A DNA stretch of 64,000 bases from Lactiplantibacillus nangangensis. Its GTDB lineage: Bacteria; Bacillota; Bacilli; Lactobacillales; Lactobacillaceae. Location: the NCBI RefSeq assembly GCF_005405065.1, contig NZ_BJDI01000009.1:1-64000 (forward strand), read 5' to 3'. The position numbers and the translations under genes are program-made. The notes beneath the pieces were generated by a model. The model had not been told where the DNA came from. It ran no database searches and saw nothing but the letters and a program-made list of their open reading frames with translations. Every line of letters begins with the position of its first letter. The stretch's first letter is position 1. Positions 8,481 to 43,785 of this stretch are shown piece by piece.

Positions 8481-8642
8481 GCCGAGAGGTTGGGCATTTT
8501 TAGGGCTCAGTGGTGAAATTTGACTTAGTTGGCGGTGGTTTACCGGCGACTTAGTCAAAGGCCGGCTTGTGAGACCGCTTTTTGGCTCACAACCGCGCCC
8601 ACCACGTTCCAGCCTTAAAAATGCCCAACCGGTAGGCGGCAA
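8481..8642 (+). repeat. Family A structured repeat, copy A1
   Basis: This copy begins GCCGAGAGGT and ends ACCGGTAGGCGGC. Inside the ends, GTTGGGCATTTTTAGGGCT pairs with AGCCTTAAAAATGCCCAAC. Two inner hairpins are visible: TTTGACT/AGTCAAA and TTGTGAG/CTCACAA around ACCGCTTTTTGG. It lies between tilS and yabR together with about 140 bp of featureless sequence before it. No credible gene is present: the 65-codon plus-strand reading frame here is just the repeat being open. Confidence 0.85.
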
Positions 8643-8695
8643 TCACCGGCTACCTGGTTTTGACTTGTCGGTCTTGGCCTGCCAAATGATAACTA

Positions 8696-8737
8696 AAAAA
8701 ACACCCGTGCAGACCACAAAAGTCTCGCACGGGTGCT
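8696..8737 (-). terminator. yabR terminator
   Basis: On the minus strand the stem GCACCCGTGC/GCACGGGTGT closes a loop and is followed by seven T residues. Confidence 0.85.
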
Positions 8738-8809
8738 TGAATTTAACTAAATTAAATGGCGAGTAGCATGATGCTTCAGCCTGAAACCGCTGACTAAGAC
8801 AAAAGGTGC

Positions 8810-9352
8810 TTAGCTGCGACGACCGCCACGGCCACCACGCTTGCCTTCAGTGTTACGTTTCAATGTTGCTAAGCGATCTTCACTATCCTTCAAGAAGCCA
8901 GACATCAATGAATCAAAGTCATCCTTCTTAGGTTCGTGTTGCCGTGATTGGAAACGGCCGCCGCCGTTACCACCACGACCATGGAAATTGCTTGAGCGAT
9001 GGTTGCCACCACCGTTACTTTGGTGTTCATTGTGTTCAGAACGACCATGATTATTGCCTTGATGGTTGTTACCACCTTGATGGCTATTGTTATGATGTTC
9101 GTGTTCACCTTGCGGATGATCAACGGCCTTACGAATCGAAAGACCAATCTTACCATCATTACCAACTGATAACACTTTGACGGTCACTTCATCGCCAACA
9201 CTCAAAACATCATGGATGTCTTTAACAAATCCATCGGAAACTTCACTGATGTGCACCAGCCCCGTTTGATTGTTACCCAGGTTCACGAACGCACCAAAAT
9301 TAGTGATCCCAGAAACTTTACCAGTGACTTTCGTACCTACTTCAATTGCCAT
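8810..9352 (-). CDS. yabR: S1-domain RNA-binding protein, YabR-like
   Basis: The first 75 residues form one S1 RNA-binding domain (VGTKVTGKVSGITNFGAFVN ... GLVHISEVSDGFV ... VKVLSV ... KIGLSIRKA). The rest is a low-complexity linker rich in His, Asn, Gly and Arg, with a basic Gly/Arg tail (GKRGGRGGRRS), so the protein probably binds RNA or the ribosome. YabR homologues sit at this position (divIC-yabR-tilS) in many Bacillota; their exact role is not settled. The ribosome binding site AGGAGG is about 11 nt before the ATG. Confidence 0.9.
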   Translation of the reverse strand: MAIEVGTKVTGKVSGITNFGAFVNLGNNQTGLVHISEVSDGFVKDIHDVLSVGDEVTVKVLSVGNDGKIGLSIRKAVDHPQGEHEHHNNSHQGGNNHQGNNHGRSEHNEHQSNGGGNHRSSNFHGRGGNGGGRFQSRQHEPKKDDFDSLMSGFLKDSEDRLATLKRNTEGKRGGRGGRRS

Positions 9353-9476
9353 AAAAAAAGTTGTTCCTCCTATGAAATAATGGTTTTAGTATAGCATACT
9401 TTGTGAAATGTTGAGTTAAATTTTCACGGGTCCTATCGAAAATGGTCTACCTTCAAATAACCGCAACGAATAGTGA

Positions 9477-9875
9477 TTAATTAGCAGTTACATCCGCCGC
9501 GTTGTCATTTGGTAAGCTATAAACCGTTTCGCCACTCTTCGTATAATCATACTTCGACCGCAATAATTTCTGGAGATAATCCTGATTATTGAGCTGTTTG
9601 ATTTGGCTATCGAGCTTGGCATTTTTCCGCTGTTCCTGTTTCAAATTAACCTGACTTGTCGCAACCTGACGATTGACCTGACTCAAACTTGCACGCGTGT
9701 TGATCAACTGATATCCGAAAAATAATAATAACGCCCCAAAAATTGCCACGATCAAGATAAACCGGCGTCGCCGCACTTGGCTGACTCGTTCCGAATAACC
9801 ATGTTTGTTTGACGCCACTTGTCGTGAATAGTCATTATTCAACTGTTTGACATTATTGCGTGACCCGTTTGTCAT
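9477..9875 (-). CDS. divIC: Cell division protein DivIC (FtsB-like)
   Basis: This 132-residue bitopic protein has a basic cytoplasmic N-terminus (RRRR), one membrane segment (about residues 39-57) and an extracytoplasmic coiled-coil-like stretch rich in Gln, Leu and Asn, ending with the conserved YDYTKSGE region. DivIC forms the FtsL-DivIB-DivIC complex that activates septal peptidoglycan synthesis. The position between rqcP and yabR is conserved. Confidence 0.92.
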   Translation of the reverse strand: MTNGSRNNVKQLNNDYSRQVASNKHGYSERVSQVRRRRFILIVAIFGALLLFFGYQLINTRASLSQVNRQVATSQVNLKQEQRKNAKLDSQIKQLNNQDYLQKLLRSKYDYTKSGETVYSLPNDNAADVTAN

Positions 9876-10007
9876 GTCCTGCCAGTCCTTTCAAATTGTG
9901 TTGACTAAATTATAACAACTTCAACCGGTGGTGTAAACGACATCATGATGATTAGACCAATGCTTACAGCCATTTCAATGGACCATCTGATTTTTTAAGT
10001 CAGCGAA

Positions 10008-10295
10008 CTAATCGCTAAATGGTTGGCGATAATCTGTTTTATAGTCTTCGCTCACGATGTCATACATCAATTCAGCGTCATTTTTCTTAGTCGTTTCCAG
10101 CAATTGGTTGATCTTGATGGTCAAGGTCTTATTTCCAAAACCAATGATCAATTCATCACCAACACTGACGTTACTAGACGATTTGGCTACCTTGCCGTTG
10201 ATCTGAATCCGCCCTTTGTCGGCGATTTCTTTAGCGACTGTCCGCCGTTTAATAATTCGTGATACTTTCAAAAACTTATCTAAACGCATACTCAT
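10008..10295 (-). CDS. rqcP: RqcP, S4-domain ribosome quality-control factor
   Basis: This small protein (95 residues) is nearly all S4 RNA-binding domain ([21 protein letters not shown] ... [20 protein letters not shown]). RqcP (YabO/YlmH-related) binds the 50S subunit and peptidyl-tRNA and supports RqcH-driven Ala-tailing of stalled nascent chains. ATG 10295 overlaps the stop of the upstream transporter gene as ATGA and has AAAGGAA at about 9 nt; a second ATG follows two codons later. The adjacent pth and mfd also deal with stalled translation or transcription. Confidence 0.92.
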
Positions 10296-11896
10296 GAATG
10301 ATGTTCCTTTCCTTTTAACACTGATTTCATTAAACGCTTGCCATACGGGAGTACTAACCACTCACGGATCGTAAATAACCGCATCGCGACCGCTCCCGCG
10401 ACAAACACCACGACCCCAACAATGACGCCAACTAACGTAATAATCCCGGTCATGCCACGATTAGCCGCCATGGTTGGTCCAACTAGGGCTTGAATTTCGT
10501 GGCTCGTCAATAAGACGACCACGCCCATCAAACCGCTGACAAATAATAATTTGACTAAATAGCCACTTTCTAATAACACTTGTTGTAAATCTTCCGGTGA
10601 ACCGACCCACATCACGGCAAACATGACACCCAAGCTGGCAACTGTCGCCAGACTGGCCCCATTTATCCCGAAATGCACGACCATTAAATAGTTCAGGCCG
10701 ATCTTAGTCGCCAAACCGGCAATAATCCCAACGATCATCGCCGTGTATTGATCCAAGCTCTGCAAAACACTCGTATAAGTCGTAATGAGCGCCGCAAATA
10801 AAATACTGAAAACGTACACGCGTAACGCAGTCGTGCCTTCCATCGAGCCAAACAACAGACGATTGATCTGTGGCATTAGCGCCACTAACCCAACCGTGGC
10901 CGCCATCGACAACGCCAAACTCACATGGACCATCGCGCGGGTGTGGCGTTTAAATTCAATGAATTGCCGTTTCGCTAGGGCATTCGTCAAAGCTGGCAAG
11001 AGTGTCGCTGAGAATGACGTCGCCACCACTAAGCCGAGTTGGACCAGTGGTTGACCACGGTCATAGACTCCTTTGATTGATTTAGCAATCTCAATCGGTT
11101 GGCCTTGACGCACGAGCCCCCGCATGACTGAAAATGAATCAATTAATTGTAATAAGATGACGACGGCCGCTACGAGGCAGAGCGTGCCACCTTCGACAAT
11201 AAAGCGATGCGCCAATTTTCGATAACTTGGTAACGGATGCGTCGCTGCTGGAGCTGGCGCCAATAAATGTCGCAACCCAAAGCTGGCAAAAATCACTGAG
11301 GAGCAGACTGCCGCAATAGCCGCCGAGCTCATGGCCCAAGCACCCATGTGATAGTCGTCCCAGCCACGGTGCAAGCTAAAGTAGGCCGCCATGAGAATGA
11401 CGCCAACCCGCACCGTTTGCTCAATTAACTGTGAAACTGCTGTCGGTCCCATTAGGAATTGACCTTGATAATACCCACGGCCAGTCGCTAACCACGGCAT
11501 AAACACGAACATCCACGCGACGGCGCCGATGATGGGGGCTAACTTGATATCCCCCATCCGCATCGCAATCCAATTGGCCCCCAACTGCAAGGTCAAAAAG
11601 ATCAGCAACGACAAAACACTTAAAATGTGGAACACGCGCCGTGTGACTAATGATTTACTCGTTTCGTCCGGCTGTTCCGCCACTAGTTTTGAAATGAAAG
11701 TTGGAAACCCATTCAGTGCAAAGGTCATGCCAATCCCATAGATGGGATAAATCTGTTGATAAACGTAAAAACCGGTGTTGCCCACCATATTTTGAAATGG
11801 AATCCGATAGACCGCGCTTAGAATTTTCGCCACTAAGGACGAAATTGAAAGAATCATGGCCCCCCGGAACATGGTGTTCAAGTGATCTTTTGGCAT
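10292..11896 (-). CDS. MVF/SpoVB-family polysaccharide or lipid flippase
   Basis: This 534-residue integral membrane protein has about 14 hydrophobic segments and the MOP-superfamily opening ([20 protein letters not shown] then [11 protein letters not shown]). Relatives (SpoVB, YtgP/MurJ, YabM) flip lipid-linked cell-wall precursors or polysaccharide units. Which substrate this one handles cannot be told from sequence. It sits between mfd and rqcP, as YabM does in bacilli, and is translationally coupled to rqcP. Confidence 0.88.
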
Positions 11897-11919
11897 AACT
11901 ATTCCCTTCTACCGATGAC

Positions 11920-14900
11920 TTACTTATTCGGTGTCGCCGCTTCGGCTGGGGCCAATACCGCACCCAACTGTTGTACGAATAACGTCAGCTGTTCTAGCCA
12001 AGCTGACTCGGACATTTTCGGCTGAATCACTAATTTAACCTTCATTTTATCATCATCAATGCCAACTGTCGCTCGTAATTTGGTTTTTGCCAAAGCCTTA
12101 AAGATATCTTTAGTCTCTAACTTAGCGGTGCCTTGCTTCGATAAGGTTAAATGTAAGTCGCTATCAAGTCGTTGGATCTTTTCAATCAGCGCGTCATCTG
12201 ATAACAGTTTTAGCTTACCAACTGCCAACAATCCCGCCACTGCTGCGGGATAATCGCCGAAACGATCGATCAAGTCGGCTTGGACTTCCAAGAATTGATC
12301 GTTATTTTCTAACTGACGAATTCGTTTGTAAATTTCAATTTTTTGCCGTTCGTCTTCAATATAAGTCGATGGCAAGTAAGCTTCGATGCCCAATTCAATC
12401 GTCGCATCCGTCTTAACTTTCGCTTGCTTACCCCGCTTCTTCGCCACAGCTTCCGACAACATCTGGGTATAGAGATCATACCCAACGGAGTCGATAAAAC
12501 CATGTTGCTGCTTTCCAAGTAAGTTTCCGGCCCCACGAATGGAGAGATCCCGCATCGCAATTTTGAAGCCAGACCCTAATTCGGTGAAGTCTTTGATGGC
12601 TTGGAGCCGCTTTTCACCGACTTCGGTCAACACTTTATTTTGTTGATACGTGAAGTACGCGTATGCGACCCGACTACTTCGACCAATTCGACCACGTAAT
12701 TGATACAACTGTGATAAGCCCATGTGGTCGGCATTTTCAACAAACAGCGTATTGACGTTCGGAATATCGACCCCGGTTTCAATAATCGTGGTCGTGACCA
12801 AGACATCGTATTCGCCACGAATAAAGTCGTATAGCACACCTTCGAGTTGTGATTCGGGCATCTGACCATCAATATGTGCCACGGCGGCATCTGGGACTAA
12901 GTCTTTGATTTGCGCCACAACTTTATCGATATCATGCACACGGTTATGCAAGTAGAAGACTTGACCGTTACGTTGCATTTCCCGTTCGATGCCTTCCTTG
13001 ACCATGCCGAAGTTTTGTTCCATGACATAGGTTTGGATCGGATAGCGGTTCGTCGGTGGTGTTTCGATCACGGACAAATCCCGCACGCCTAGCATCGACA
13101 TATGCAAGGTCCGCGGAATAGGTGTCGCCGTTAAGGTTAAGACATCCACACTAGCCTTCATTTCCTTTAGCCGTTCCTTGTGCTTGACCCCAAACCGTTG
13201 TTCCTCATCAATAATCAGCAGGCCTAAGTCCGCAAATTTCACATCTTTTGATAAGAGGCGATGCGTCCCTACGACAATATCTAAATCACCGTCTTTTAAT
13301 TGTTTGACGGTTTCTTTCATTTCTTTCCCGGTTCGGAACCGGGAGAGCATCCCAACATTGATTGGATACCCTTCGAAGCGGTTCAGCATCGTTTCATAAT
13401 GTTGTTGCGCCAAAATGGTCGTCGGCACTAAGAAAGCAACTTGTTTACCGGCTTCGATTGCCTTAAAGGCCGCCCGTAACGCGACCTCCGTTTTCCCATA
13501 GCCAACGTCACCAACTAAGAGGCGATCCATTGGTTTAGGCCGTTCCATATCATGCTTGATTTCGTCGATACTTCGCAATTGGTCTGGCGTTTCTGGATAA
13601 GGAAAGTCGTTATCAAAGTCTTGCTGATAACTATCGTCCGGTGGAAATGGGAACCCTTTTTCAGCTTCGCGTTGCGCATAGAGTTCAACAAGTTCGTCCG
13701 CAATGTCTTCAATTTTGGCAGCAACTTTGCGCTTAGCCTTGGTCCATTCAGTTCCACCTAATTTGTTAATATGCGGTGTTTTTGACTCTGACGAAACGTA
13801 TTTCTGAACTAAATTCAGTTGCGTGACGGGGATGAAAATTTTCGCATTATTTTGATAAGCAATCGTAATGTAATCTTGATGGACGCCATCTACTTCCAGC
13901 GTCTGCATCCCGACGTATTTCCCAATCCCATGATTAACGTGGACCACAAAATCGCCGGGCTTCAAATCGGTATAGCTCTTCAAACGTTCCGCGTTGGCTA
14001 AAGTTTGGCGGCGGGGACGCTTCTTTGCAACCTTTTTGAACATTTCCTGTTCGGTCACAATGACAAGTTGACCATCGGGAAATTCAAACCCATTTTGTAA
14101 ACTGCCCTGTACAATCTGGACGACCCCTGGCTGTAAATTTTCAGCTTTTGTCATGGTCGCATCGATTTCGAAATCATCTAATGTATTGCTAACTTTCGTT
14201 AACCGCTCTGCTTCTGAAACCATCAAAACCACGGTTTGTTTTAATTTATGCCAACGGTCCAACTCGGTCTTCAAGGCAGGTAACTGCCCAAAGAATTCTT
14301 GCATCGACCGTGTGCGCACATTCGTAATTTGGGCGAGCCGCACATTCCCAATCCCTTTTTGGAATAATGACACGAGCACTTGGGCATGCCCATCCGCCTT
14401 CAACAAATCACGCATATCATTACCATAATTAGCCGTTGATAAAACTTTGTGATGCGCCAATTGATCCGTGATCCAATCAGCTTCACTTTGTAACAGCTGT
14501 TGTTCACTATCTAAGATTCGCGAATACTCGTCGAAAACGACGACCCCGTCCGTTGGAACGTAATCAAAGAGACTCGTTTTACTACTATAGAAATATTCGC
14601 CATATAGGAGTAAATCATTCCCAATGATCCCTTTTTGCATATCTGATAATGGCTGGGCTAAGTTGTCTGCCAACGTTTGGCGATCGGCCACTTTCAGCTT
14701 TTTACTTTCAGCTGCCATCGCCTCGGTTAACCGTTCTGCCCCGGCAGCCATCATCGCCTTCGTTAAAATAAAATCAGTCGCCGGTAATACCGTGAACGTT
14801 TCAAGATTGTCCACAGAACGTTGTGTCTCGGGATCAAAATACTTCAGAGTATCGATCTCCGTGTCAAATAGGTCCAAACGAATTGGGTAATCGGCATCTA

Positions 14901-15450
14901 ACGGATAGATATCGACGATCGAGCCCCGCACGGCAAAGTCCCCTGGCCGTGCGACCAATTTTTCTTTGACGTAACCCATATCGTGCAACTGCACTTGTAA
15001 CTTTTCCAAATCGACTTCATGCCCAACCGTTAACGGCAGTCGTGAAGCTTTAAAACTGTCAACTGGTGGCAAGAAACGCCGCGCACCAGATACCGACGTT
15101 ACCACGATGGCGGGTTGGTCACTGAGCAACGCATTCAACGCTTGTACCCGTTGTGCGCGATATTCTGGCGAACTGGTGGCAATTTCAGACGCGACCATTT
15201 CTTCGGCTGGAAATAAGAAAACTTGATCTTCAGTCAACAAACTATTCAAATCATCGACCATTTGGCTCGCATGAAAGAGGTTATCCGTCACGATCAATAA
15301 TGAATGCGTGAGTTGATGGAATAACGCACTCACATAAACTGTCCGTGCTGAGCCATTTAACCCCGTAATTAACTGACGACTAGCTGGACTGATGCCCGCT
15401 AAGATCGTTTGAAAATCCGGCGTTTGTTCAACAATCGCTTCAATATCCAT
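11920..15450 (-). CDS. mfd: Transcription-repair coupling factor Mfd
   Basis: Mfd (1176 residues, full length) removes RNA polymerase stalled at DNA lesions and recruits UvrA. The order of domains is normal: UvrB-like N-terminal region, CarD-like RNA polymerase interaction domain (GDFVVHVNHGIGKYVGMQ, about residues 495-515), then a RecG-like translocase with Walker A GDVGYGKTE, DEEQ box (IIDEEQRFG), TATPIPRT and the QLRGRIGRS motif, and a C-terminal autoinhibitory region. It directly follows pth (18-bp gap), so pth, mfd and the next genes form one operon. Confidence 0.97.
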   Translation of the reverse strand: MDIEAIVEQTPDFQTILAGISPASRQLITGLNGSARTVYVSALFHQLTHSLLIVTDNLFHASQMVDDLNSLLTEDQVFLFPAEEMVASEIATSSPEYRAQRVQALNALLSDQPAIVVTSVSGARRFLPPVDSFKASRLPLTVGHEVDLEKLQVQLHDMGYVKEKLVARPGDFAVRGSIVDIYPLDADYPIRLDLFDTEIDTLKYFDPETQRSVDNLETFTVLPATDFILTKAMMAAGAERLTEAMAAESKKLKVADRQTLADNLAQPLSDMQKGIIGNDLLLYGEYFYSSKTSLFDYVPTDGVVVFDEYSRILDSEQQLLQSEADWITDQLAHHKVLSTANYGNDMRDLLKADGHAQVLVSLFQKGIGNVRLAQITNVRTRSMQEFFGQLPALKTELDRWHKLKQTVVLMVSEAERLTKVSNTLDDFEIDATMTKAENLQPGVVQIVQGSLQNGFEFPDGQLVIVTEQEMFKKVAKKRPRRQTLANAERLKSYTDLKPGDFVVHVNHGIGKYVGMQTLEVDGVHQDYITIAYQNNAKIFIPVTQLNLVQKYVSSESKTPHINKLGGTEWTKAKRKVAAKIEDIADELVELYAQREAEKGFPFPPDDSYQQDFDNDFPYPETPDQLRSIDEIKHDMERPKPMDRLLVGDVGYGKTEVALRAAFKAIEAGKQVAFLVPTTILAQQHYETMLNRFEGYPINVGMLSRFRTGKEMKETVKQLKDGDLDIVVGTHRLLSKDVKFADLGLLIIDEEQRFGVKHKERLKEMKASVDVLTLTATPIPRTLHMSMLGVRDLSVIETPPTNRYPIQTYVMEQNFGMVKEGIEREMQRNGQVFYLHNRVHDIDKVVAQIKDLVPDAAVAHIDGQMPESQLEGVLYDFIRGEYDVLVTTTIIETGVDIPNVNTLFVENADHMGLSQLYQLRGRIGRSSRVAYAYFTYQQNKVLTEVGEKRLQAIKDFTELGSGFKIAMRDLSIRGAGNLLGKQQHGFIDSVGYDLYTQMLSEAVAKKRGKQAKVKTDATIELGIEAYLPSTYIEDERQKIEIYKRIRQLENNDQFLEVQADLIDRFGDYPAAVAGLLAVGKLKLLSDDALIEKIQRLDSDLHLTLSKQGTAKLETKDIFKALAKTKLRATVGIDDDKMKVKLVIQPKMSESAWLEQLTLFVQQLGAVLAPAEAATPNK

Positions 15451-15468
15451 AGCGACTTTTCCCTCCCA

Positions 15469-16026
15469 TCAATTATATTGATTCATCAATGCCGCAAAAT
15501 CATCCGTTGCCAACCACGCTTCGATCGCAGCGACCGCCGTAATCTTAGCGTCATTAAACAATGGTAATTGGGCCGGCGTAAACTTACCAAGCACGTAATC
15601 GACCACACTCATTTTTTGCGGGTGTTCGATACCTACTTTGACCCGTTTAAACTGTTGATCGCCAACGTGCGCGATAATGCTCTTAATCCCGTTATGACCG
15701 CCGGCGGAACCTTTTTGTTTTAGACGAACTTTGCCAAGTGGGAGGTCCAAATCATCATGAACGACTAATAAGTCGCTTGGATCGATGTTGTAATACGTCA
15801 TCAATGGCCCAACTGCGCGACCGGAATCATTCATATAAGTCGATGGCTTCACAATCAAGATTTTTTCACCAGCCACAAAAGCCGTCGCAACTTCGGCTTC
15901 AAACTTAGTAGTTTGAAAGTCCGCATTGAGCTTTGCGGCAATTTCATCCACAACCATAAAACCGACATTATGCCGGGTTTGCGCATATTTCTGACCAATA
16001 TTTCCTAAACCAACAATCATTTTCAT
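15469..16026 (-). CDS. pth: Peptidyl-tRNA hydrolase
   Basis: Pth (185 residues) releases tRNA from peptidyl-tRNA that drops off ribosomes. The catalytic His lies in YAQTRHNVGF, and the motifs KPSTYMNDSG, VHDDLDLPLG and GGHNGIKSI are intact. MKMIVGLGNIG is the standard start; an open frame extends 11 codons upstream, but GGGAG lies inside that extension. The ATG two codons later (16020) is also possible. It heads the pth-mfd operon, downstream of a 1.2-kb repeat-filled gap. Confidence 0.95.
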   Translation of the reverse strand: MKMIVGLGNIGQKYAQTRHNVGFMVVDEIAAKLNADFQTTKFEAEVATAFVAGEKILIVKPSTYMNDSGRAVGPLMTYYNIDPSDLLVVHDDLDLPLGKVRLKQKGSAGGHNGIKSIIAHVGDQQFKRVKVGIEHPQKMSVVDYVLGKFTPAQLPLFNDAKITAVAAIEAWLATDDFAALMNQYN

Positions 16027-16065
16027 TTTAAGCTTTAACTCCCATAGTCCCGTTGACATGCAAAA

Positions 16066-16216
16066 CAGGCCGAACCAGATTCAAACTGATTCGGCAGCAT
16101 TACTTGCACGGTTAATTAACATTTTTAGTTTTAGATGCGGCCGGTTGCTTGCCACTCCGGTTAGCCTGCGTGGTGACCACATTTTTAGTTCAATCAGTAT
16201 ACCACAAACCGGCCTG
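16066..16216. other. Two hairpins upstream of pth
   Basis: At 16066-16097 GGCCGAA and TTCGGC form a stem of about 10 bp with one mismatch. At 16138-16215 GGCCGGTT and AACCGGCC are the arms of a larger imperfect palindrome containing the palindrome GTGGTGACCAC. Both lie between pth and repeat A2. They may be a degraded repeat element; no T-run makes either a convincing terminator. Confidence 0.4.
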
Positions 16217-16277
16217 CAATACCTATTTGAAGCGCCTGCTGGTAAGCGATTTATGGACTAGCAGATTGCGCTTAATT

Positions 16278-16432
16278 GCCGCCTACCGGTCGGTTCGTTT
16301 AGGGCTGGAACGCTGTGAATCGTTTTTGAGCCAAAAGGCGGTCTCAAAAGCCGATTTTTGACTAACCGCGGCAACCCACCGCGCTAAGTCAAATGCCACG
16401 GCTGAGCCCTAAACAACCCGACCTCACGGCGA
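16278..16432 (-). repeat. Family A structured repeat, copy A2
   Basis: In reverse orientation it starts GCCGTGAGGT and ends ACCGGTAGGCGGC. The closing arms GTCGGGTTGTTTAGGGCT and AGCCCTAAACGAACCGAC pair with few mismatches and differ from every other copy. The inner hairpins read TTTGACT/AGTCAAA and TTTTGAG/CTCAAAA. Confidence 0.82.
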
Positions 16433-16784
16433 TGTTAACTGGACTATTTTGAAACTGGCATCAAACACTAAATCTTGATAACACAATTAAAGGCAGAAAG
16501 TTGTGTTAATGCCACTATGTAGTAATCAAACAATGGTGCTAATCAATGCTTACCGAATCATACCGGGACAAATCAACTCACTTGCTTGATTCAGCCCAAA
16601 CAATCACACAAATCAACTAGATTATTCAAAGTATGCCAATATACGAAAATTAGCAACAAAACAATCACTTGAAACTTCAATACCAATCAAGCCATTATTG
16701 CTCTTACTAGTTTCAGAGTGGTTACACAGCAATCACTCATGACATTAGTGATTTAAGCTTTCCAACAATTGAACAGCTAGTACA

Positions 16785-16943
16785 GCCGAGAGGTCATGTT
16801 CATTTAGGGCTCAGTGGTGAAATTTTACTTAGCAGGCGGTGGGTTTCCGACTGGTTAGTAAAAGGTTGGCTTTCGAGACCGCCTTTTGGCTCGAAAACGG
16901 CCCACCACGTTCCAGCCCTAAATGAACGTGACCGGTAGGCGGC
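16785..16943 (+). repeat. Family A structured repeat, copy A3
   Basis: This copy starts GCCGAGAGGT and ends ACCGGTAGGCGGC. The arms GTCATGTTCATTTAGGGCT and AGCCCTAAATGAACGTGAC pair. The inner hairpins are TTTTACT/AGTAAAA and TTTCGAG/CTCGAAA. From 16433 to 16784 I see no gene, only AT-rich sequence. Confidence 0.85.
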
Positions 16944-17057
16944 AACCACCCACTATCTAATAGCACTCTTCGAGACCGTTTTTTGGCTTGGAAACGGCCC
17001 ACCACGTTCCAGCCCTAAATGAACGTGACCGGTAGGCGATAACCACCCACTATCTAA
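16874..17057 (+). repeat. Tandem duplication of the 3' half of repeat A3
   Basis: Positions 16874-16960 and 16971-17057 are direct repeats of 87 bp, 97 bp apart, with only a few differences. Both hold CGAGACCG, ACGGCCCACCACGTTCC, the right arm and ACCGGTAGGCG plus flanking CCACCCACTATCTAA. The duplicated unit includes non-element flank, so this is a local duplication and not a second insertion. Confidence 0.85.
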
Positions 17058-17171
17058 CAATTTTCATTGTGTAAGCTTACGTCCAACAATATGACCATTT
17101 CAAGCCTTGGTAAGCTTAATGATACTTCCATTAAAAGCACAGTCGTTTTAGCGACTTGGCAAGGATAATCA

Positions 17172-17180
17172 TGGTATACT
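17172..17180 (+). promoter_or_regulatory. ldhL extended -10 promoter
   Basis: TGGTATACT gives an extended -10 (TGnTATACT) about 45 bp before the ldhL start. No good -35 lies 17 bp upstream (TTGGCA is only 13 bp away), so the extended -10 probably carries most of the activity. Confidence 0.6.
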
Positions 17181-17219
17181 CAAATCGTTGAAAAACAAAT
17201 TTTCGTTATGAGAGGATGA

Positions 17220-18188
<969 letters not shown>

Positions 18189-18207
18189 TCAAGCTTAAAT
18201 CATTTGT

Positions 18208-18242
18208 GGCACTTACTGGGAATACCGGTAAGTGCTTTTTTA
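18208..18242 (+). terminator. ldhL terminator
   Basis: GCACTTAC and GTAAGTGC form the stem, followed by TTTTTT, about 20 bp past the ldhL stop. Confidence 0.9.
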
Positions 18243-18339
18243 GGTTGATGCTAACTTAGGCGACAAGGAATTTGCACTTACCAACGAAGTGTTATAAGGT
18301 GAAACCATCATGACACACATTTTCGGGGGTTAATTAAAA

Positions 18340-21096: not shown

Positions 21097-21103
21097 TGAA
21101 ACA

Positions 21104-21146
21104 TCCTCCTAGTTTTTTTAACGTGGGATGGTTACGAACCACGTTT
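21104..21146 (-). promoter_or_regulatory. preQ1-I riboswitch controlling queT
   Basis: On the minus strand: AACGTGG, loop TTCGTAACCAT, CCCACGTT, then AAAAAAACTAGGAGG. This is the class I preQ1 layout: P1 stem ACGTGG/CCCACGT, GGTTC loop start, and the A-rich tail AAAAAACTAG folding back. The GGAGG ribosome binding site lies in the tail, so ligand binding should block translation. The start codon follows 7 nt later. Confidence 0.9.
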
Positions 21147-21230
21147 TGAAAATGACAAGCGGTTTACATCATAGCACGCAGCTGGCGCGGTCGCAAATCA
21201 GGATGACGGATCAGTGAATTGCACTTGATT

Positions 21231-21275
21231 GCCGCCTACCGGTCGGTTCGGTTAGGGCTGGAACGCTGTGAATCG
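21231..21275 (-). repeat. Family A repeat, truncated copy A4
   Basis: Only the 3' end is left: GCCGCCTACCGGTCGGTTCG then TTAGGGCTGGAACGCTGTGAATCG on the plus strand, nearly identical to the same part of copy A2 with a short shared left flank. The other half is missing. Confidence 0.75.
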
Positions 21276-35528: not shown

Positions 35529-35593
35529 CGAATCAGCCTCGCTATTTGAATGTGAGTGTCAGTTACGATCAACAGTTCGTCATTACAGTACGA

Positions 35594-36019
35594 TTAATTT
35601 GTTTCTTCATCCCAATAGCCTGAAACCGTGTAGTGGCTACCATTATAATTGTTATTCTGTGCAGTTAAGTAGACATACTTTTTTGATGCATCTGAATATG
35701 CAGTGGAGTAATACGAGCCACTCCCTTGTTTAACATGTAAGGATGGTGAAACATTAGTTCCTTTTGCATTTTCAAGCCAGTAAGTGGTTACTGTGCGAGC
35801 CCCTTCCCCAGATCTTTGCATATTCACTTTCCACTTATTGTTTACATTAGTAGTCTCTCGATACCGGCGACCACTCCTTGAGTTAGCTTGGTTCGATTGA
35901 ATACCAAAACGGAACCCCCAATTATCATTTGAGGCATATGCTGTGTTGGCACCAATTACGCCAAAGGTAAGAATACTTAACAAACAAACAGAAACTGTTT
36001 TAGTTTTAAGCGCTTTCAT
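35594..36019 (-). CDS. Small secreted protein (DUF2712-like), first gene of the ABC island
   Basis: This 141-residue pre-protein has a clear signal peptide (MKALKTKTVSVCLLSILTFG, cleavage likely after AYA near residue 29) and a mature part of about 112 residues rich in Ser, Asn, Tyr and Thr, with almost no Cys or hydrophobic stretch. The pattern GRRYRETTNVNNKWKVNM ... TYWLENAKG ... VKQGSGSYY ... YTVSGYWDEETN resembles, from memory, family DUF2712, seen next to ABC transporters in Gram-positives. I chose ATG 36019 because GGAGG lies 7 nt upstream. A bacteriocin, signal or wall-binding role is possible; none is shown. Confidence 0.72.
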   Translation of the reverse strand: MKALKTKTVSVCLLSILTFGVIGANTAYASNDNWGFRFGIQSNQANSRSGRRYRETTNVNNKWKVNMQRSGEGARTVTTYWLENAKGTNVSPSLHVKQGSGSYYSTAYSDASKKYVYLTAQNNNYNGSHYTVSGYWDEETN

Positions 36020-36062
36020 TTTACTGTCCTCCAAGCAAAATTTACACTCCCATTCGTTGCTA

Positions 36063-36091
36063 ATTATATACCATATATATCTCTACATCAA
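36063..36091 (-). promoter_or_regulatory. Promoter of the secreted-protein/ABC island
   Basis: On the minus strand TTGATG (36086-36091) and TATAAT (36063-36068) are exactly 17 bp apart. The spacer is AT-rich (ATATATATGGTA). This is the only strong promoter seen for the six-gene run. Confidence 0.8.
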
Positions 36092-36136
36092 TGATTATTT
36101 TCATCTTATGCATATTGATCATGACGACGTTACACC

Positions 36137-36215
36137 AATCGAGTAAGAGAGAATTGCTTGTTCCGCTTGCCGACCTCGCACACCACCGTACGTACGGTAC
36201 CATATATAGTGGTTC
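36137..36215 (-). mobile_element. Probable group II intron 3' end remnant (domains V-VI)
   Basis: On the minus strand: CCGTACGTACGGTGGTGTG, CGAGGTCGGC, then TCTCTCTTACTCGATT. This matches the typical 3' end of many bacterial group II introns (domain V end ACGTACGGTGGTGTGAGAGG-like, domain VI, then TTACTCGAT). There is no maturase gene and no 5' part, so only a fragment of about 70-80 bp is left, directly beside the island promoter. Recognition is from memory of intron ends. Confidence 0.55.
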
Positions 36216-36239
36216 AACAACTATCATCTTGCCTTGCAC

Positions 36240-36284
36240 ACAAAAAAAGACGCGCCAGCCGAAGCTGGAACGCCCAATTAATTG
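36240..36284 (-). terminator. rpmE2 terminator
   Basis: On the minus strand GGCGTTCCAGC, TTCG, GCTGGCGCGTC then seven T residues. Confidence 0.8.
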
Positions 36285-36289
36285 ACTGC

Positions 36290-36535
36290 TTATTTGAGAC
36301 CGTATTTCTTGTTGAAACGATCGACCGCACCATCGGCTTTGGTGAACTTTTGTTTACCAGTGTAGAATGGATGTGAGTCTGAAGTAACTTCGACCCGGAT
36401 TAATGGGTAAGTGTTACCGTCTTCCCATTCAACAGTTTCTGCTGAAGTAGCTGTTGAACCAGAGATGAACTTGAAACCAGTTGTTGAATCTTGGAAAACA
36501 ACTTGGTGGTAATCTGGATGGATTCCTTTTTGCAT
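36290..36535 (-). CDS. rpmE2: Ribosomal protein L31 type B
   Basis: This 81-residue protein of the large ribosomal subunit is the type B (zinc-independent) form: the CxxC pair of type A L31 is absent and no Cys occurs at all. The sequence [20 protein letters not shown] and the C-terminal [10 protein letters not shown] are typical. AAAGGAG lies 8 nt before the ATG. rpmE next to rho is conserved in Bacillota. In many bacteria type B L31 is raised under zinc limitation, but I see no Zur box here. Confidence 0.96.
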
Positions 36536-36688
36536 AATATTACGCTCCTTTGCCCTGAATCATTTGCTGAAACAGAGATTATCATTTGTTTTAAATCAAC
36601 CTTTGTATCTTAGCATGAACTAGGGGTTCTCGTCAAGAGTGCGCGGCACCACACACATTTCGACTATCAAGCTAAGTTAGCGTTACTT

Positions 36689-36840
36689 GCCGCTCCGGGT
36701 GGGCTGGACTGACGCTGGAACGTGGTGGGCACGGTTACGAGCCAAAAGGCGGTCTCGTAAGCCGGCCTTTTTCTAAGTCGGGAAAATCACCCAACTAAGA
36801 AAAATTTCACCACTGAGCGTCATCCAGCCCACCCTACGCT
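36689..36840 (-). repeat. Family A structured repeat, copy A5 (diverged)
   Basis: In reverse orientation the left end is degenerate (AGCGTAGGGT) and the right end is ACCCGGAGCGGC. The arms differ from all other copies: GGGTGGGCTGGATGACGCT pairs with AGCGTC.GTCCAGCCCACCC. Even the usually constant AGGGCT next to the arm is replaced, on both sides. Inner stems are TTTTTCT/AGAAAAA and TACGAG/CTCGTA. The gap 36536-37073 holds this copy, a weak hairpin at 36976-37012 (AACTGGGAAC/GTTTCCAGTT), a fragment GAGGCGGCAAC near 37052, and otherwise nothing I recognise. Confidence 0.78.
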
Positions 36841-37073
36841 AGTTAAATGTCTATTTTTGAAATAGTTTTAGACAACCAATGAGCCATGATCTACAACCAT
36901 TGCTTAGTAGAAAATACTTAGTTCGTCATCAACGACTGAGAATTACAATCAATAATTCTCAATAAAAATCACTGAACTGGGAACATGCTAACGTCATAGT
37001 TTCCAGTTCAAGCACCAGCTACTAAAAAAAGCACAAACTAACTACTAACTAGAGGCGGCAACTTTCACCAATC

Positions 37074-38372
37074 TTATCGGCGCGGTTTACGACGTGCGGT
37101 CGAACCGCCGCCAATTTTCAAACTACCTAAGTCGTGTAAGAAAGCTTGGTTAGTCTTGGAATGCTTTAAAAATTGTAATAACTGTTCCGTATATTCCAGT
37201 GAATTGCCACCCATCGATCGGCGAATTTGCCATACTGGCTCCAACGCGGCCTTACTGAGAAGTAATTCTTCTTTACGTGTACTGGATTGTTTCAAATCTA
37301 AGGCTGGGAAGACACGCCGTTCCGCTAATTCACGGGACAATTGTAATTCAGAATTCCCAGTCCCCTTAAATTCTTCATAGATCATGTCATCCATCCGGCT
37401 ACCCGTATCAACTAAGGCGGTCCCTAAAATTGTCAGACTCCCGCCCTCTTCAATGTTACGGGCAGACCCGAAGAATCGCTTAGGCTTATAAAAGGCCGTT
37501 GGATCTAAACCACCAGATAACGTCCGACCACTCGATGGCATCGTTAAATTGTAAGCCCGTGTTAAACGCGTAATCGAGTCCAACAAAATAATAACATCTT
37601 GCTTATCTTCAACTAAGCGGCGCGCACGTTCCAAAACTAATTCAGCGACACGCACATGATTTTGAGGTTGCTGGTCAAACGTTGAACTAACAACTTCACC
37701 CTTGATTGACCTTTCCAGATCAGTGACTTCTTCGGGCCGTTCATCGATTAATAACATAATTAACTTGGCATCTGGATAATTCGTCATAATGCCATTCGCA
37801 ATATTCTTGAGTAAGGTCGTCTTCCCCGCTTTAGGTGGCGCGACAATCAAGCCACGTTGGCCAAAGCCAATTGGGACAAAAGTATCGATCAAGCGGGTAG
37901 ATAATGTTTGTTGCGTCGTTGACAGTTTGATTTGGCGATGAGGATAAAGTGGCGTTAACGCCGGAAAATGCGGTCGTTGTCGCGCCTCATTCGGATCTTT
38001 ACCATTGACTGTGCCCACGCGCATCAGACCATAATAACGTTCATTTGGCTTTGGTGGTCGTGCTTGACCAGCCACATAATCCCCGTTTCGTAAGCCAAAA
38101 CGATGAATCTGTGACTGTGAAATATAAATATCTTCTTGTGAAGGGCCATAGTTAATTGGACGCAAAAAGCCGTAGCCTTCTTGTCCAATTATTTCGAGGA
38201 CGCCCTCCATTTGGACAAAGCCACGCTTTTTGTCTTGTTCCCGTAAAACTGCCAGCGAGAGTTCTTTTTTATTCATTTGTGAATAATATTGAATTTTGTA
38301 ATCACGGGCATAGGTATAGATTTCCTTGAGTGTTTTTTGCTCAAGGTCATGCATTGTTAAAATTTTTTCCAT
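37074..38372 (-). CDS. rho: Transcription termination factor Rho
   Basis: Rho (432 residues) is a hexameric RNA helicase that ends transcription at Rho-dependent sites. The N-terminal RNA-binding fold ([20 protein letters not shown] ... [20 protein letters not shown]), Walker A PPKAGKTT, Walker [11 protein letters not shown] and the Q/R-loop region ([10 protein letters not shown] type: [12 protein letters not shown]) are intact. ATG 38372 has AAGAG 8 nt upstream. It follows murA after a 391-bp structured gap and precedes rpmE2. Confidence 0.96.
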
Positions 38373-38775
38373 TATCACTGCTCTTTCTCAGCTTGTGATT
38401 GGCAAGCATTCAAGCACTCAGCTTGAATTATGATCTTTTTGTTGTTTTGAATTACTATTTGGGGATTTGGATAGAGTACTTCCTAGAGAATGGGATTAGT
38501 TGGTCGAGTTTCGTCCTTAATTTGATGGTCGAAACGTGTTCGCACCAGCTGCGTCCTCCACTTAGCTACGCCATCGGCACAATGCTAAAACCGCATTATA
38601 CCGACAGCTAGGCTATGCTCACTCTCAACCCGGCTTGCCTCACACTCTTTTGAAATGTGCTCGCTGGCACTGCGGGCTCCGCTTATCCCGGTTAAGCCAC
38701 CACTCGGAAAATCACCGAGTAATGACTTAACCACGATAATGCTCACCAGCAACCCGTGCCAGCTCACACTCTTTC
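38373..38775 (-). promoter_or_regulatory. Long structured leader between murA and rho
   Basis: On the minus strand GCTGGCAC (at the murA stop) pairs with GTGCCAGC about 90 nt later. Enclosed is a nested hairpin GGTTAAG/CTTAACC with ACTCGG/CCGAGT inside. A 38-nt motif beginning GAGTGTGAG and ending GTGAGCAT occurs twice (38738-38772 and 38612-38649). Further small hairpins (CGCAgctggTGCG, TTTCG/CGAAA) and a TATAAT (38594-38599) follow before rho. No gene is present. Confidence 0.6.
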
Positions 38776-40041
38776 TTGTTCATCTGCAGCAATCTCGACA
38801 TCTGCGCCTAACGTGTGTAACTTATCAATCACACGGTCGTACCCACGTAGGATATTGTCGGCGCGTGAAATTTCAGTCGTGCCACTAGCCGCTAAACCGG
38901 CAATCATTAACGCCGCCCCAGAACGGATTTCTCCGGCCTCGACATGTGCGCCTTGTAAATGTGCCGAATGACCGACCACGATTAAGTTGTCTTGCACATG
39001 AATATCCGCACCCATCTTGCGTAACTGGGCAATGTGTTGCGTTCGTTGTGGATAAATGGTGTCAATCACCACGCTGTTGCCATTCGCCCGTAATAATAAC
39101 GGCGTAATCGGCTGCTGTAAGTCGGTGGCAAAGCCAGGATAAGTCATCGTTTTGACCCGGACTGGACTTAATTCACCAACGCGTGGCACATAAATACTAT
39201 CTTCATTAATTTGTAAGTCGACACCCATTTCAATCATCTTAGCTGTGAAAGACTCCATATGTTCTGGAATGACATTCTTTAATAAGACGCCATCGCCAAT
39301 CGCCGCCGCCAATGACAAATAAGTGCCTGTCTCGATTCGATCAGGAATAATGGTATGCGTCGCTCGTGAGCGTAGTGACGAGACGCCTTCGATCCGGATG
39401 ACATCCGTCCCAGCGCCACGAACTTTGGCACCCATATTGTTCAAAAAGGTTGCTAAATCAATAATTTCGGGTTCTTTCGCTGCATTCTCAATGGTCGTCG
39501 TCCCGTGTGCTTTGACGGCTGCCAAAATAATATTAATGGTGGCGCCAACTGAAACCACATCCAAAAAGATGCGGGCACCGTGAAGACCTTCCGTACCAGT
39601 TGAAATAAAAACAGAGTCGTTTTTTTCGACAACATTAGCACCTAAGGCTTTGAAGCCTTTAATATGTTGATCGATTGGGCGTGGACCAATGTTGTCCCCA
39701 CCGGGAAAGGTCACCGTTGCTCGGTTAAAACGGCCGAGTAGCGCGCCCATAAAGTAATAAGATGCACGCAGGCTTTTAATTGCGTGACTTGGTAATTCGG
39801 ATTCAATAATTTGGGTTGGATCAATCGTTAATACATCGTTTTCAAAAGTGGAATGAACATTCATCGATTCCAGGATAATTTTTAAATTGTGAACGTCTAA
39901 GATATGAGGAACCGTATCAAATCGGACCGGCGTGTCTGCAAGAATCGCAGCAGGAATCAGTGCGACGGTACTATTTTTTGCGCCACCGATCGTTAACTCC
40001 CCAGAAAGTCTTTTTCCGCCATGGATAATCATTTTTTTCAT
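38764..40041 (-). CDS. murA: UDP-N-acetylglucosamine 1-carboxyvinyltransferase (C-to-D variant)
   Basis: MurA (425 residues) transfers enolpyruvate from PEP to UDP-GlcNAc, the first committed step of peptidoglycan synthesis. The fold and substrate residues are intact (GGAKNS near residue 19, RPIDQH). The catalytic loop, normally PGGCxIGxRP, reads PGGDNIGPRP, so the Cys is Asp (residue 116). This change keeps activity but prevents fosfomycin alkylation in known natural variants. It sits between pyrG and rho, the usual place of the murA2 copy in lactobacilli; a second murA elsewhere is expected. Confidence 0.94.
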   Translation of the reverse strand: MKKMIIHGGKRLSGELTIGGAKNSTVALIPAAILADTPVRFDTVPHILDVHNLKIILESMNVHSTFENDVLTIDPTQIIESELPSHAIKSLRASYYFMGALLGRFNRATVTFPGGDNIGPRPIDQHIKGFKALGANVVEKNDSVFISTGTEGLHGARIFLDVVSVGATINIILAAVKAHGTTTIENAAKEPEIIDLATFLNNMGAKVRGAGTDVIRIEGVSSLRSRATHTIIPDRIETGTYLSLAAAIGDGVLLKNVIPEHMESFTAKMIEMGVDLQINEDSIYVPRVGELSPVRVKTMTYPGFATDLQQPITPLLLRANGNSVVIDTIYPQRTQHIAQLRKMGADIHVQDNLIVVGHSAHLQGAHVEAGEIRSGAALMIAGLAASGTTEISRADNILRGYDRVIDKLHTLGADVEIAADEQERV

Positions 40042-40228
40042 AACATAACTTTCCTCGCTAAATAAGTGTCACACTGTACAATACAATCATTAACCATAAT
40101 AAAGAATGTCATGCGAAAAAACAACCAATATCAGGAAACTGTAATCTTTTCGAACCAGAAAATCGAGAACTTATCTAATTTAATCGCTTTCATTAAGAAA
40201 CTGCAACTTTTTAACATTATGACGAGGT

Positions 40229-40265
40229 AAAAAAAGCACCCAAGTAAATTTCACTTGAGCACTTT
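40229..40265 (-). terminator. pyrG terminator
   Basis: On the minus strand AGTGCTCAAGT, 7-nt loop, ACTTGGGTGCT then TTTTTTTT. Confidence 0.9.
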
Positions 40266-40281
40266 AAATTACTAATTAAGT

Positions 40282-42046
<1,765 letters not shown>

Positions 42047-42065
42047 GTTAAATCACAAATGCGTC

Positions 42066-42680
42066 TTACTTGTTATCGTCTTCGTCGTCATCATCGTAGT
42101 CGTCATCGTCATCATCATTTAATTCTGACAATTGACCTTCGATGCCATCTGGTAACGTTTCATCGGCGGCGTCATCATCTGTGTCATCAACACCTGATAA
42201 TTCATCATACTTGCTACTGCTTTCTGAATCGTCATCATCGTCGGCACTGCTGTCGTCGTCATCTTCATAATTATCGTCGTCTTCAGGATCATCATCATCG
42301 TAATCAATAACATCATCGTCATCGCCGGCGTCAGCTAAGAAGGCATTAACCTTCTTCCGCTTTTTACGCTTAGGCCGATCTTCATCCTCTTCATCATCGG
42401 TATGAATCACAGCTTCGTCAATGGATTCGAATGGGTACCATGCACGCAGGCCCCACATATTGTCACCGAGCGAAATGAAACTACCATCGATATTTAAATC
42501 GGTATAAAATTGTGATAAACGCTCCCGAATTTCTTCGTCGCTTTTACCTAAATAAGTCTGTACAGCGTTGGTAATGTCGGCAAAACCCATGGCATCACCG
42601 TGTTGCGCCAAGATTGCGTGGGCAACCTCGATTAAAGATAATTCGGACTTTTTCTGTCCATCAAATTGTTTTAGTTCCAA
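42066..42680 (-). CDS. rpoE: RNA polymerase delta subunit
   Basis: RpoE (204 residues) is the Gram-positive delta factor that increases polymerase recycling and start-nucleotide sensing. The folded N-terminal domain (about 1-90, SLIEVAHAILAQHGD ... WGLRAWYPFESID) is followed by a basic patch (RPKRKKRKK) and a strongly acidic, disordered tail of Asp/Glu runs to the C-terminus. The start is TTG 42680 (AAAGGA about 10 nt upstream, residues ELKQFDGQ); a GTG farther up lies before the ribosome binding site. rpoE-pyrG adjacency is conserved in Bacillota, and both touch nucleotide sensing. Confidence 0.95.
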   Translation of the reverse strand: MELKQFDGQKKSELSLIEVAHAILAQHGDAMGFADITNAVQTYLGKSDEEIRERLSQFYTDLNIDGSFISLGDNMWGLRAWYPFESIDEAVIHTDDEEDEDRPKRKKRKKVNAFLADAGDDDDVIDYDDDDPEDDDNYEDDDDSSADDDDDSESSSKYDELSGVDDTDDDAADETLPDGIEGQLSELNDDDDDDYDDDDEDDNK

Positions 42681-42724
42681 ACTGGTGCACGTCCTTTCCA
42701 CAGTTTACAGTACATCTTACCAAA

Positions 42725-43165
42725 TTAAGCCGTGAATTGCAATCGCAACTTGTATTGACCAATTAGTTGATCACCAGCATATAATTCATAATCAATATTG
42801 ACGGCCCCGGAGAAAGGCCGTTCCCGTAGTCGGACTTGTAACAATGGCGTTACGGTCTCAACGGGTAAAACGCCCATGGGGGTCTGATAGCGCGCTTGAA
42901 TCCGTTTGCCATTTGAAAAATGTAGACGCAGCCGATTCTCCGCGCTACGGGTCAACACGACGTCGCCGTTGGCAGCCAGCTTGATAGTCACGGGAATTGG
43001 GTCGGTCGCGGCATCGCTCACTTCTTTATATCGTAAATAAAAGGCATCGCCCATTTGCACTAATTGACCATCCACGTCTAACGCATAGTTAGCGGTGTCG
43101 CCATCTTGGGTCGCTTGGGTTTCCAAATGAATGGCAACTGGCACGCCCGTTGTTAAATCATCCAT
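42725..43165 (-). CDS. ywiB: DUF1934 (YwiB) beta-barrel protein
   Basis: This 146-residue cytosolic protein belongs to DUF1934/YwiB, a lipocalin-like small beta-barrel of unknown function. The alternating beta pattern (FYLRYKEV ... DVVLTRSAENRLRLHF ... YELYAGDQLIGQYKLRLQF) fits. GGAGG lies 10 nt before the ATG. It precedes rpoE after 44 bp and may be cotranscribed. Repeat A6 begins about 55 bp upstream. Confidence 0.85.
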   Translation of the reverse strand: MDDLTTGVPVAIHLETQATQDGDTANYALDVDGQLVQMGDAFYLRYKEVSDAATDPIPVTIKLAANGDVVLTRSAENRLRLHFSNGKRIQARYQTPMGVLPVETVTPLLQVRLRERPFSGAVNIDYELYAGDQLIGQYKLRLQFTA

Positions 43166-43220
43166 AATTTTGAGTCCTCCTAATTAATCCATCATTAACA
43201 CAAGTCAAGCGTTCAAGTTT

Positions 43221-43384
43221 GCCGCCTGCCGGGTGCCAGCTTTTAGGGCTGGAACGTGGTGGACACGTTTTCGAGCCATAGTTCGGTCTCGAAAGCCGGT
43301 CTTTTACTAAGTTGCTGGGCAAGACCCACCCACCAACTAAGCAAAATTTTACCACTGAGCCCTAAAAGCTGGCACCCTCTCGGC
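43221..43384 (-). repeat. Family A structured repeat, copy A6
   Basis: In reverse orientation it starts GCCGAGAGGGT and ends CGGCAGGCGGC. The arms GGTGCCAGCTTTTAGGGCT and AGCCCTAAAAGCTGGCACC are perfectly complementary and unlike other copies. The inner stem TTTTGCT/AGTAAAA uses a G.T wobble, and the second hairpin is TTTCGAG/CTCGAAA. Confidence 0.85.
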
Positions 43385-43627
43385 TAAAATAGTTGTTCAA
43401 TTCGACGCATCATTACTTCAGAATTTCACTCAGCCCAATAATTAACTTTCTAATGTTATGAATTCTCAATCAAAATATCAGTCATTTAATTCGAACCAAG
43501 TTAATAACAGCAAACTTAGCCACAATCACCGAACTGAAACAGCTGTCTGACAAGTACCAACACTGCCATCCTCATAAAAAATGATAACTAAAACAAGAAT
43601 ATCATTTTTTTATCCGTCACAAATTTA

Positions 43628-43785
43628 GCCGTGAGGTCAGCGTGTTTTAGGGCTCAGTGGTGAAATTTGACTTAGCTGGTGGTGATTTTCCAGCGGCTTA
43701 GTCAACCGCCGGCTTTCGAGACCGCATTTTGGCTCGAAAACGGCGCACCACGTTCCAGCCCTAATACACGCTGACCGGAAGGCGG
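43628..43785 (+). repeat. Family A structured repeat, copy A7
   Basis: It starts GCCGTGAGGT and ends ACCGGAAGGCGG. Arms GTCAGCGTGTTTTAGGGCT and AGCCCTAATACACGCTGAC pair. Inner stems: TTTGACT/AGTCAAC and TTTCGAG/CTCGAAA. Between A6 and A7 (43385-43627) and from 43786 to the lipL start I see no gene. Confidence 0.85.

Follow-up and report, generated by a model that had tools for sequence, protein, structure and literature searches.

Structured repeats between bacterial genes

The bcr repeats (bcr1-bcr18) of the Bacillus cereus group are described, in the portions of two reports available to us, as structured, intergenic, multi-copy and similar to miniature inverted-repeat transposable elements (MITEs), with a length of about 150-170 nucleotides (nt) for bcr1 and expression of about half of all bcr copies (PMC3446304, PMC2267715). 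BOX, RUP and SPRITE of the pneumococcus are, according to the accessible text of a third report, small proliferated interspersed repeats with extensive secondary structure, some of which are expressed (PMC3049150). Here, a comparable family, family A, is described from a 64,000-nt stretch of the Lactiplantibacillus nangangensis genome (contig NZ_BJDI01000009.1, positions 1 to 64,000), the whole of which is hereafter called the window; the genome to which it belongs (2.90 Mb) is called G000. Family A combines a covarying fold, a bias toward one strand, compensatory changes at syntenic loci, the pairing of elements into outward-facing dyads, bursts of copies and one dyad type bounded by the ends of an IS982 insertion sequence. 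Being multi-copy, mostly intergenic, conserved in fold and marked by signs of mobility, it is a structured proliferated intergenic repeat like bcr and BOX in kind. On balance, we lean toward seeing the dyads as MITE-like, non-autonomous units that retain their single-strand fold once inserted, most likely in the form of a putative RNA.

The likeness to the bcr repeats, as far as the portions cited describe them, covers length, intergenic position, copy number, conserved secondary structure and MITE-like nature, whereas the three-way junction, the branched classes B and D, the outward dyads and the hosts differ; the two are set apart by their descriptions only. BOX, RUP and SPRITE are likewise proliferated small structured repeats, compared here by their partial description and not by sequence. 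BOX elements are modular, in contrast to the two opposed copies of one covarying fold seen here. REP/BIME sequences with their RAYT transposases are paired inverted palindromic units between genes, but the fold here is much larger and no Y1 transposase match is present in G000. Integron attC sites go with an IntI integrase and a directly oriented cassette array; the opposed orientation of the dyad members speaks against this kinship, although no integrase search was made.

At the Rfam 15 gathering cut-off only the PreQ1 riboswitch and the L31 leader were matched in the window, and an E-value scan of three loci (L001, L010, L023) left the elements unmatched, so identity with an Rfam family was rejected for the classes covered by these scans, of which class D was not part. 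Searches of a set of openly licensed papers, judged mainly from their result lists, brought up bcr and stem-loop surveys and no description of the family in lactobacilli. In the available portion of a stem-loop survey, L. johnsonii was the sole lactobacillus returned by term search and the word plantarum was absent (PMC2267715).

A covarying fold on one strand

The fold begins with helix P0 (GCC/GGC), followed by a purine-rich internal loop, the 20 pairs of P1, a CA/GUUCC internal loop and P2, which opens into a junction with P3 and P4, P1 thereby closing a P2/P3/P4 three-way junction. The sequence-only reading of the window had counted three stems where there are five helices.

With one near-consensus copy (A1) as blastn query, 45 places were found in G000. 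The 30 best of these were aligned with MAFFT and counted against a hand-drawn fold of 60 pairs: 95.8% of 1756 cells were paired, 35 of the 60 pairs had changed on both sides, and the covariation score was 0.408, slid controls giving 0.046-0.075 and shuffles 0.129. RNAalifold returned nearly the same fold from this alignment (54 pairs, 31 with double changes). A larger alignment was made with R1, a covariance model built from family A only, and comprised 141 matches at E<=1e-10 from 100 loci of three species (G000, G009 and G011, the last with 10 loci). In it 94.7% of 8029 cells were paired, 52 of the 60 pairs showed double changes, and the score reached 0.527 vs 0.038-0.094 for controls, in an alignment that is biased toward the model. 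Without a fitted alignment, the two P1 arms of a copy paired at -20.3 kcal/mol on average vs -9.0 for arms from foreign copies (78 copies); the own arm was the best partner, ties allowed, in 55 of the 78 and among the top five in 68.

The observation that the letters of the repeat change while its pairing is kept is confirmed, and both alignments, together with double changes at syntenic loci, strongly support conservation of the fold and not of the sequence. The outermost arms do pair within each copy, but of the six inner pairs of P1 three vary and three are fixed in the 30 copies.

The pairing is not symmetrical between strands. After omission of three of the 141 rows (two class B copies and one truncated copy), 7900 cells read on the element's plus strand contained 268 G-U against 111 A-C combinations, the ratios being 104:52 in P1, 102:22 in P3 and 39:14 in P4. 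This excess singles out one strand and does not distinguish RNA from single-stranded DNA.

These counts also bear on a neutral explanation, namely that arm-to-arm correction by template switching keeps palindromic arms complementary without function. Such a process would yield double changes and highly variable yet well-paired P1 arms, and at the P3 position otherwise held by a U.U mismatch 6 of 138 copies do carry an A-T pair. On the other hand, 129 of 138 copies retain the U.U mismatch, 130 have an exact CA/GUUCC loop and all 138 possess the bulged A of P4, though long stems, which ought to promote correction, flank each of these features; unpaired columns are more conserved than paired ones (1.30 vs 1.10 bits). 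With these irregularities largely fixed and G-U more frequent than A-C on one strand, arm-to-arm correction, one of the origins first suggested for the repeat, is disfavoured and in our judgment very improbable.

Copies of family A in the window

Direct reading and placement by the covariance model gave six near-complete copies, one partial duplicate and one fragment. E-values of all models are rough, and the open reading frame (ORF) calls used below are crude.

8478-8642, plus strand: A1, near-consensus family A element (R1 186.8 bits)
16276-16433, minus strand: A2, CAGCCGTGG subtype, left member of the pth/ldh dyad (R1 129.9 bits)
16782-16945, plus strand: A3, right member of the pth/ldh dyad, with a spacer of 348 nt to A2 (R1 167.4 bits)
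16969-17040, plus strand: partial tandem duplicate of the A3 3' half (window repeat family; blastn match G000:C9:16972-17047)
21218-21275, minus strand: A4, fragment consisting of the 3' end of an element only (95% to the A2 end over 58 nt)
36687-36842, minus strand: A5, subfamily with AGCG..GAGCGGCAA ends (R1 155.2 bits)
43219-43387, minus strand: A6, left member of a dyad with A7 (R1 165 bits)
43625-43788, plus strand: A7, right member of the A6/A7 dyad, with a spacer of 237 nt (R1 169.9 bits)

The helices of A1, taken from the columns of the 30-copy alignment, lie as follows.

P0: 8481-8483/8635-8637
P1: 8488-8507/8611-8630
P2: 8510-8515/8600-8605
P3: 8519-8535/8543-8559
P4: 8560-8576/8584-8599

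The seven copies or fragments first listed by the sequence-only reading were borne out in position and in the arms quoted, with A4 reduced to a 3'-end fragment beside six near-complete copies. The end motif ACCGGTAGGCGGC had 9 window matches at <=2 mismatches vs 0.63 expected by shuffling; the start motif alone is weak (5 matches vs 1.84). The intergenic position also held, as no ORF of >=90 aa overlaps the six near-complete copies and, genome-wide, 102 of 111 examined elements have no overlap of >=50 nt with such an ORF. A5 lies between rho (37074-38378, minus strand) and the L31 leader (36545-36577, minus strand), and the A6/A7 dyad lies upstream of a gene resembling octanoyl/lipoyl-[GcvH] transferases (lipL; model scores below the cut-off).

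Three further observations concern the surroundings. The PreQ1 riboswitch (21103-21148, minus strand) has fragment A4 just upstream. Short tandem GGGTTTGAACT-like units occur downstream of some family A elements (C13:29881, C7:158392, G011:C3:110032). At 42061-42322, dense TCATCA/TCGTCG-like repeats on the plus strand lie inside a minus-strand ORF, which we take to be an RpoE delta-like gene, as expected of an acidic stretch.

Compensatory changes at syntenic loci

Comparison of the G009 and G011 copies whose two flanks are syntenic to G000 provided 23 contrasts, some of which share a row. Left uncounted were C17:2125 (many-to-many repeat matches), C11:25456 and C1:259412 (weak), C9:16782 cross-matches to L060, L254 and L257, C4:21216/21703 (degenerate partner), C4:193457/193901 (another subtype at the site), C9:43219 (another copy), C9:16276 (deleted in G009), and C1:234870 and C17:39317 (no counterpart). 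In the 23 contrasts 72 pairs had changed on both sides vs 15.8 expected (maximum of 2000 shuffles, 30), under a permutation in which stem positions are swapped freely and the clustering of changes is not taken into account; 63 of the 72 were still paired and 9 were not. A stricter set of 19 contrasts, from which three that were not best-matching and one between G009 and G011 were dropped, gave 29 double changes vs 7.0 expected for G000 and G009 (14 pairs of copies; maximum 15 in 5000 shuffles), 25 of them still paired, and 21 vs 3.0 for G000 and G011 (5 pairs of copies; maximum 10), all 21 still paired. Arms identical by descent at each locus without compensatory changes had been named as the outcome that would speak against retention of the fold, and the syntenic copies show the opposite.

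Syntenic elements are 89.3% identical on average, compared with 67.9% and 77.2% for their 60-nt flanks and about 59% for random flanks, and both flanks fall below the element in 19 of the 23 contrasts. When a copy was matched against the other species, its syntenic counterpart came first in 19 of 22 contrasts. Within the window, A3 has a syntenic G009 copy with 91% identity, in which the partial tandem duplicate is absent, and A7 also has a syntenic copy in G009. Element loss and replacement also happen: the A2 ortholog of G009 carries an internal deletion, the left position at lipL (A6) holds a different copy in G009, and the corresponding site of G011 holds a short scar, read by eye.

A superfamily of three classes and its hosts

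A second repeat of the window, family B, has the ends and the plan of family A, with a branched P4. R2 denotes its covariance model and R3 that of class D, a further class recognised as the partner element in a burst of copies in genome G020.

47316-47508, plus strand: class B element 1, same plan with branched P4 (R2 203.1 bits)
54809-55000, plus strand: class B element 2 (R2 215.4 bits)
59475-59669, plus strand: class B element 3 (R2 214.9 bits; R1 54.8 bits)

For class B, RNAalifold predicted 68 pairs, 26 of them with double changes, from 21 of 30 loci, with five lacking recognised ends and four with odd ends omitted. The class D alignment has 14 rows, from 10 of the 19 G020 loci and four G000 copies first found by the family A model; R3 scores A copies at <=62 bits and B copies at <=54.7 bits. 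The best explanation is that A, B and D are classes of one superfamily of 150-200-nt intergenic elements that would fold as one strand. The link between families A and B and the outward-facing pairing of elements go beyond what the sequence-only reading had proposed.

The R1 model finds 92 family A matches in G000 at E<=0.01. The combined inventory comprises at least 144 elements, namely 86 A (above 50 bits), 53 B and 5 D, one of the last doubtful; this is a lower bound because 40 candidates were scored for class B and the search for partners was confined to the loci examined. These elements take up 24431 bases, or about 0.84% of G000, likewise as a lower bound. Across 60 genomes, with at most 48 candidates scored in each, family A was found in 22: 19 of 21 of its own genus (G000 included), 3 of 16 from other genera of the family and none of 23 from other families of the order. 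Among the named records with a match are Levilactobacillus humaensis and L. paucivorans. The same-genus genomes G001 and G002 had no R1 match. Carriage by phages or plasmids was also considered and rejected, with no match in a viral-contig pattern scan, in plasmids or in phages, collections that may omit records near the own genome.

Outward-facing dyads

Among the 144 elements, 50 neighbours lie within 1 kb of each other, and 46 of these face outward (minus, plus); two are minus-minus, two plus-plus and none plus-minus (p 1.5e-23 against equal orientations). Altogether 98 of the 144 belong to close-neighbour pairs. The 5' ends of the members face the spacer, which measures 23-49 nt in 11 of the outward pairs, 192-427 nt in 33, and 569 and 863 nt in the remaining two; the spacer of 863 nt, at C20:40466, contains a 183-aa ORF. 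The members of long-spacer A-A dyads are slightly more similar to each other (0.79, n=10) than random A pairs (0.72, sd 0.07). When genes are called by a simple rule on ORFs, the nearer gene lies on the 3' rather than the 5' side for 34 of 42 single and 53 of 57 paired elements, and class B 3' ends face a convergent gene in 22 of 25 cases. The idea that long-spacer dyads have an interior in common was rejected, none of 19 spacers resembling another.

Mobility and the IS982 ends

The short-spacer dyad of two A-type members is bounded by TTGGTGCTAGTTG, ends that it shares with an IS982 element of G000. This element has a 289-aa ORF matching the transposase model NF033520 (219.1 bits; cut-off 130), and the gene is present in two head-to-tail copies (L391 530-1399 and 1775-2644, G000:C13) with the terminal repeats shared. 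The exact terminal repeat occurs 13 times in G000, 78 times in G008 and 88 times in G017, and is present in 9 of 21 genomes; none of the 13 G000 occurrences, counted as exact matches only, lies at a long-spacer dyad. By its terminal repeats, only the short-spacer dyad belongs to the IS982 type and can be counted as an IS982-type MITE. The likeness to IS982-derived MITEs lies in the terminal repeat of one dyad type and, tentatively, in flanking direct repeats of 8-10 nt read by eye, whereas the interior here is made of two structured elements and other dyad types have other ends.

A derivative is present in the window upstream of class B element 3.

59320-59402, no strand assigned: deletion derivative of a short-spacer IS982-type dyad, recognised by eye, with an exact terminal repeat at the left (59320-59332), the 3' end of one element and an inverted terminal repeat with one mismatch at the right

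Upstream of lipL, G008 (L212) and G017 (L216) carry the same IS982-type dyad in opposite orientations at one site, which suggests inversion between the dyad ends or two insertions. At least six G008 and G017 contigs (for example G008:C46:60-72, G017:C17:60-72 and G017:C18:59-71) also carry the IS982 terminal repeat close to their start, at a distance of 59-124 nt; long identical copies may lie behind these contig starts, having broken the assemblies.

Two bursts have ends that differ from the IS982 type. G011 contains 26 closely similar A copies, most of the pairwise matches listed being 84-98% identical over the element, and in two loci read through by eye a B-like element faces away upstream. 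In the D-A burst of G020 a full-length D partner was found in 10 of 19 loci. The ends of the G020 dyads gave 16 matches, of which 12 were read as loci, 11 with a P4-like signature inside; no insertion sequence with these ends was identified in the 12, whose ORFs were not examined. Target duplications were not readable in this burst, the terminal repeats being too decayed, and at the ldh dyad the relatives were too divergent to offer a clean empty site for such a reading.

These signs of mobility could be those of pure parasites, with MITE copies whose fold reflects the fitness of the source copy only and whose conservation between species comes from conversion among copies. The bursts in G011 and G020, the IS982-type ends, the copy replacement at lipL and the lack of a model match in two species of the genus would fit this, and BOX, RUP and SPRITE are judged parasitic in the accessible text of PMC3049150. 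We consider the explanation unlikely, as the syntenic copy is so often the best match, compensatory changes occur at the same locus and the upstream flanks are near random.

It is similarly unlikely that the fold matters as single-stranded DNA, as a hairpin substrate of a transposase or recombinase in the manner of IS200/IS605, REP/RAYT or attC. The one-strand bias fits single-stranded DNA equally well as RNA, upstream promoter enrichment was not found, and the conserved terminal motif TTAGCC..GGCGGCAA with the purine-rich internal loop would suit such a substrate. Against it, the Y1 transposase family PF01797 has no match in six element-rich genomes (G000, G003, G005, G008, G018, G020), which led to its rejection as a partner, and has 3 and 7 matches in G001 and G002, where the family A model finds no element. 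IS200/IS605 elements have a direct arrangement, unlike the inverted dyad members, and the sole identified mover, IS982, has a DDE transposase and repeats that lie outside the fold; selection for mobility would moreover not be expected to go on preserving the fold once a copy is inserted and fixed. The earlier idea of a hairpin element needing a transposase is partly upheld: one dyad type shares IS982 ends, yet these ends enclose the fold, and Y1 does not track the elements. A reverse transcriptase partner, as for a group II intron or retron remnant, was also rejected, with no PF00078 match in the element-rich genomes G009, G017 and G018.

A proposed course from insertion to retained fold

Among the structured RNA, the hairpin-forming mobile element and the arm-to-arm correction that were suggested at first, a structured RNA appears to fit best. 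In the course that we favor, ordinary DDE transposases would act in trans to move the dyads; once a dyad is in place its spacer and terminal repeats would decay, while selection on a single strand would keep the fold. The folded molecule would most likely be an RNA made by read-through of neighbouring transcription, as no dedicated promoter signal was found, and this putative RNA may act in cis at gene edges or as a candidate protein-binding site formed by the CA/GUUCC loop and the GACCGCNNUUUGGC hairpin.

Several points weigh against this course. On the side of transcription, P2 lacks the G-U bias (18 G-U vs 22 A-C), and the gene downstream of family A elements is on the same strand in 49 cases, on the opposite strand in 35 and absent in 2, which gives no consistent direction of transcription. 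A sigma-70 search of the 100 nt upstream of 84 copies showed no enrichment (mean best score 7.85 of 12 in sense, 7.90 in antisense and 7.96 in shuffled sequence); own upstream promoters thus find no support in these copies, and RNA production is unproven. On the side of retention, a change on one side only, at syntenic loci, destroyed or re-established a pair in 66 cases vs 49 in which pairing persisted through G-U, copy replacement of the kind seen in G009 at lipL could add to the conservation, and the ortholog pairs were drawn from detected copies, so decayed copies are under-counted. On the side of mobility, a transposase was identified for only one dyad type. Flanking direct repeats, read by eye and without statistics, measure 10 nt at the C8:101806 and C13:5926 dyads and 8 nt at one IS copy; neither the C17:2125 dyad nor the burst in G020 showed any. 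No two of 19 long spacers are similar at E 0.01, so the dyad as a mobile unit is not shown for long-spacer dyads.

A bolder version, in which the dyad itself is the mobile and selected unit and the folded RNA pair, drawn from an ancient superfamily comprising A, B and D, is the constant part across units with different terminal repeats, is doubtful though worth naming. If it were true, the folds would be useful to the unit itself or to its host, which might be achieved by protecting adjacent genes from read-through or by attracting a host protein.

Lactiplantibacillus is among the bacterial genera most used in food. Its deep sets of paralogs and orthologs of these elements offer a clean natural test of structure retention in interspersed bacterial repeats, and the rule that members of a dyad face outward calls for a mechanism.

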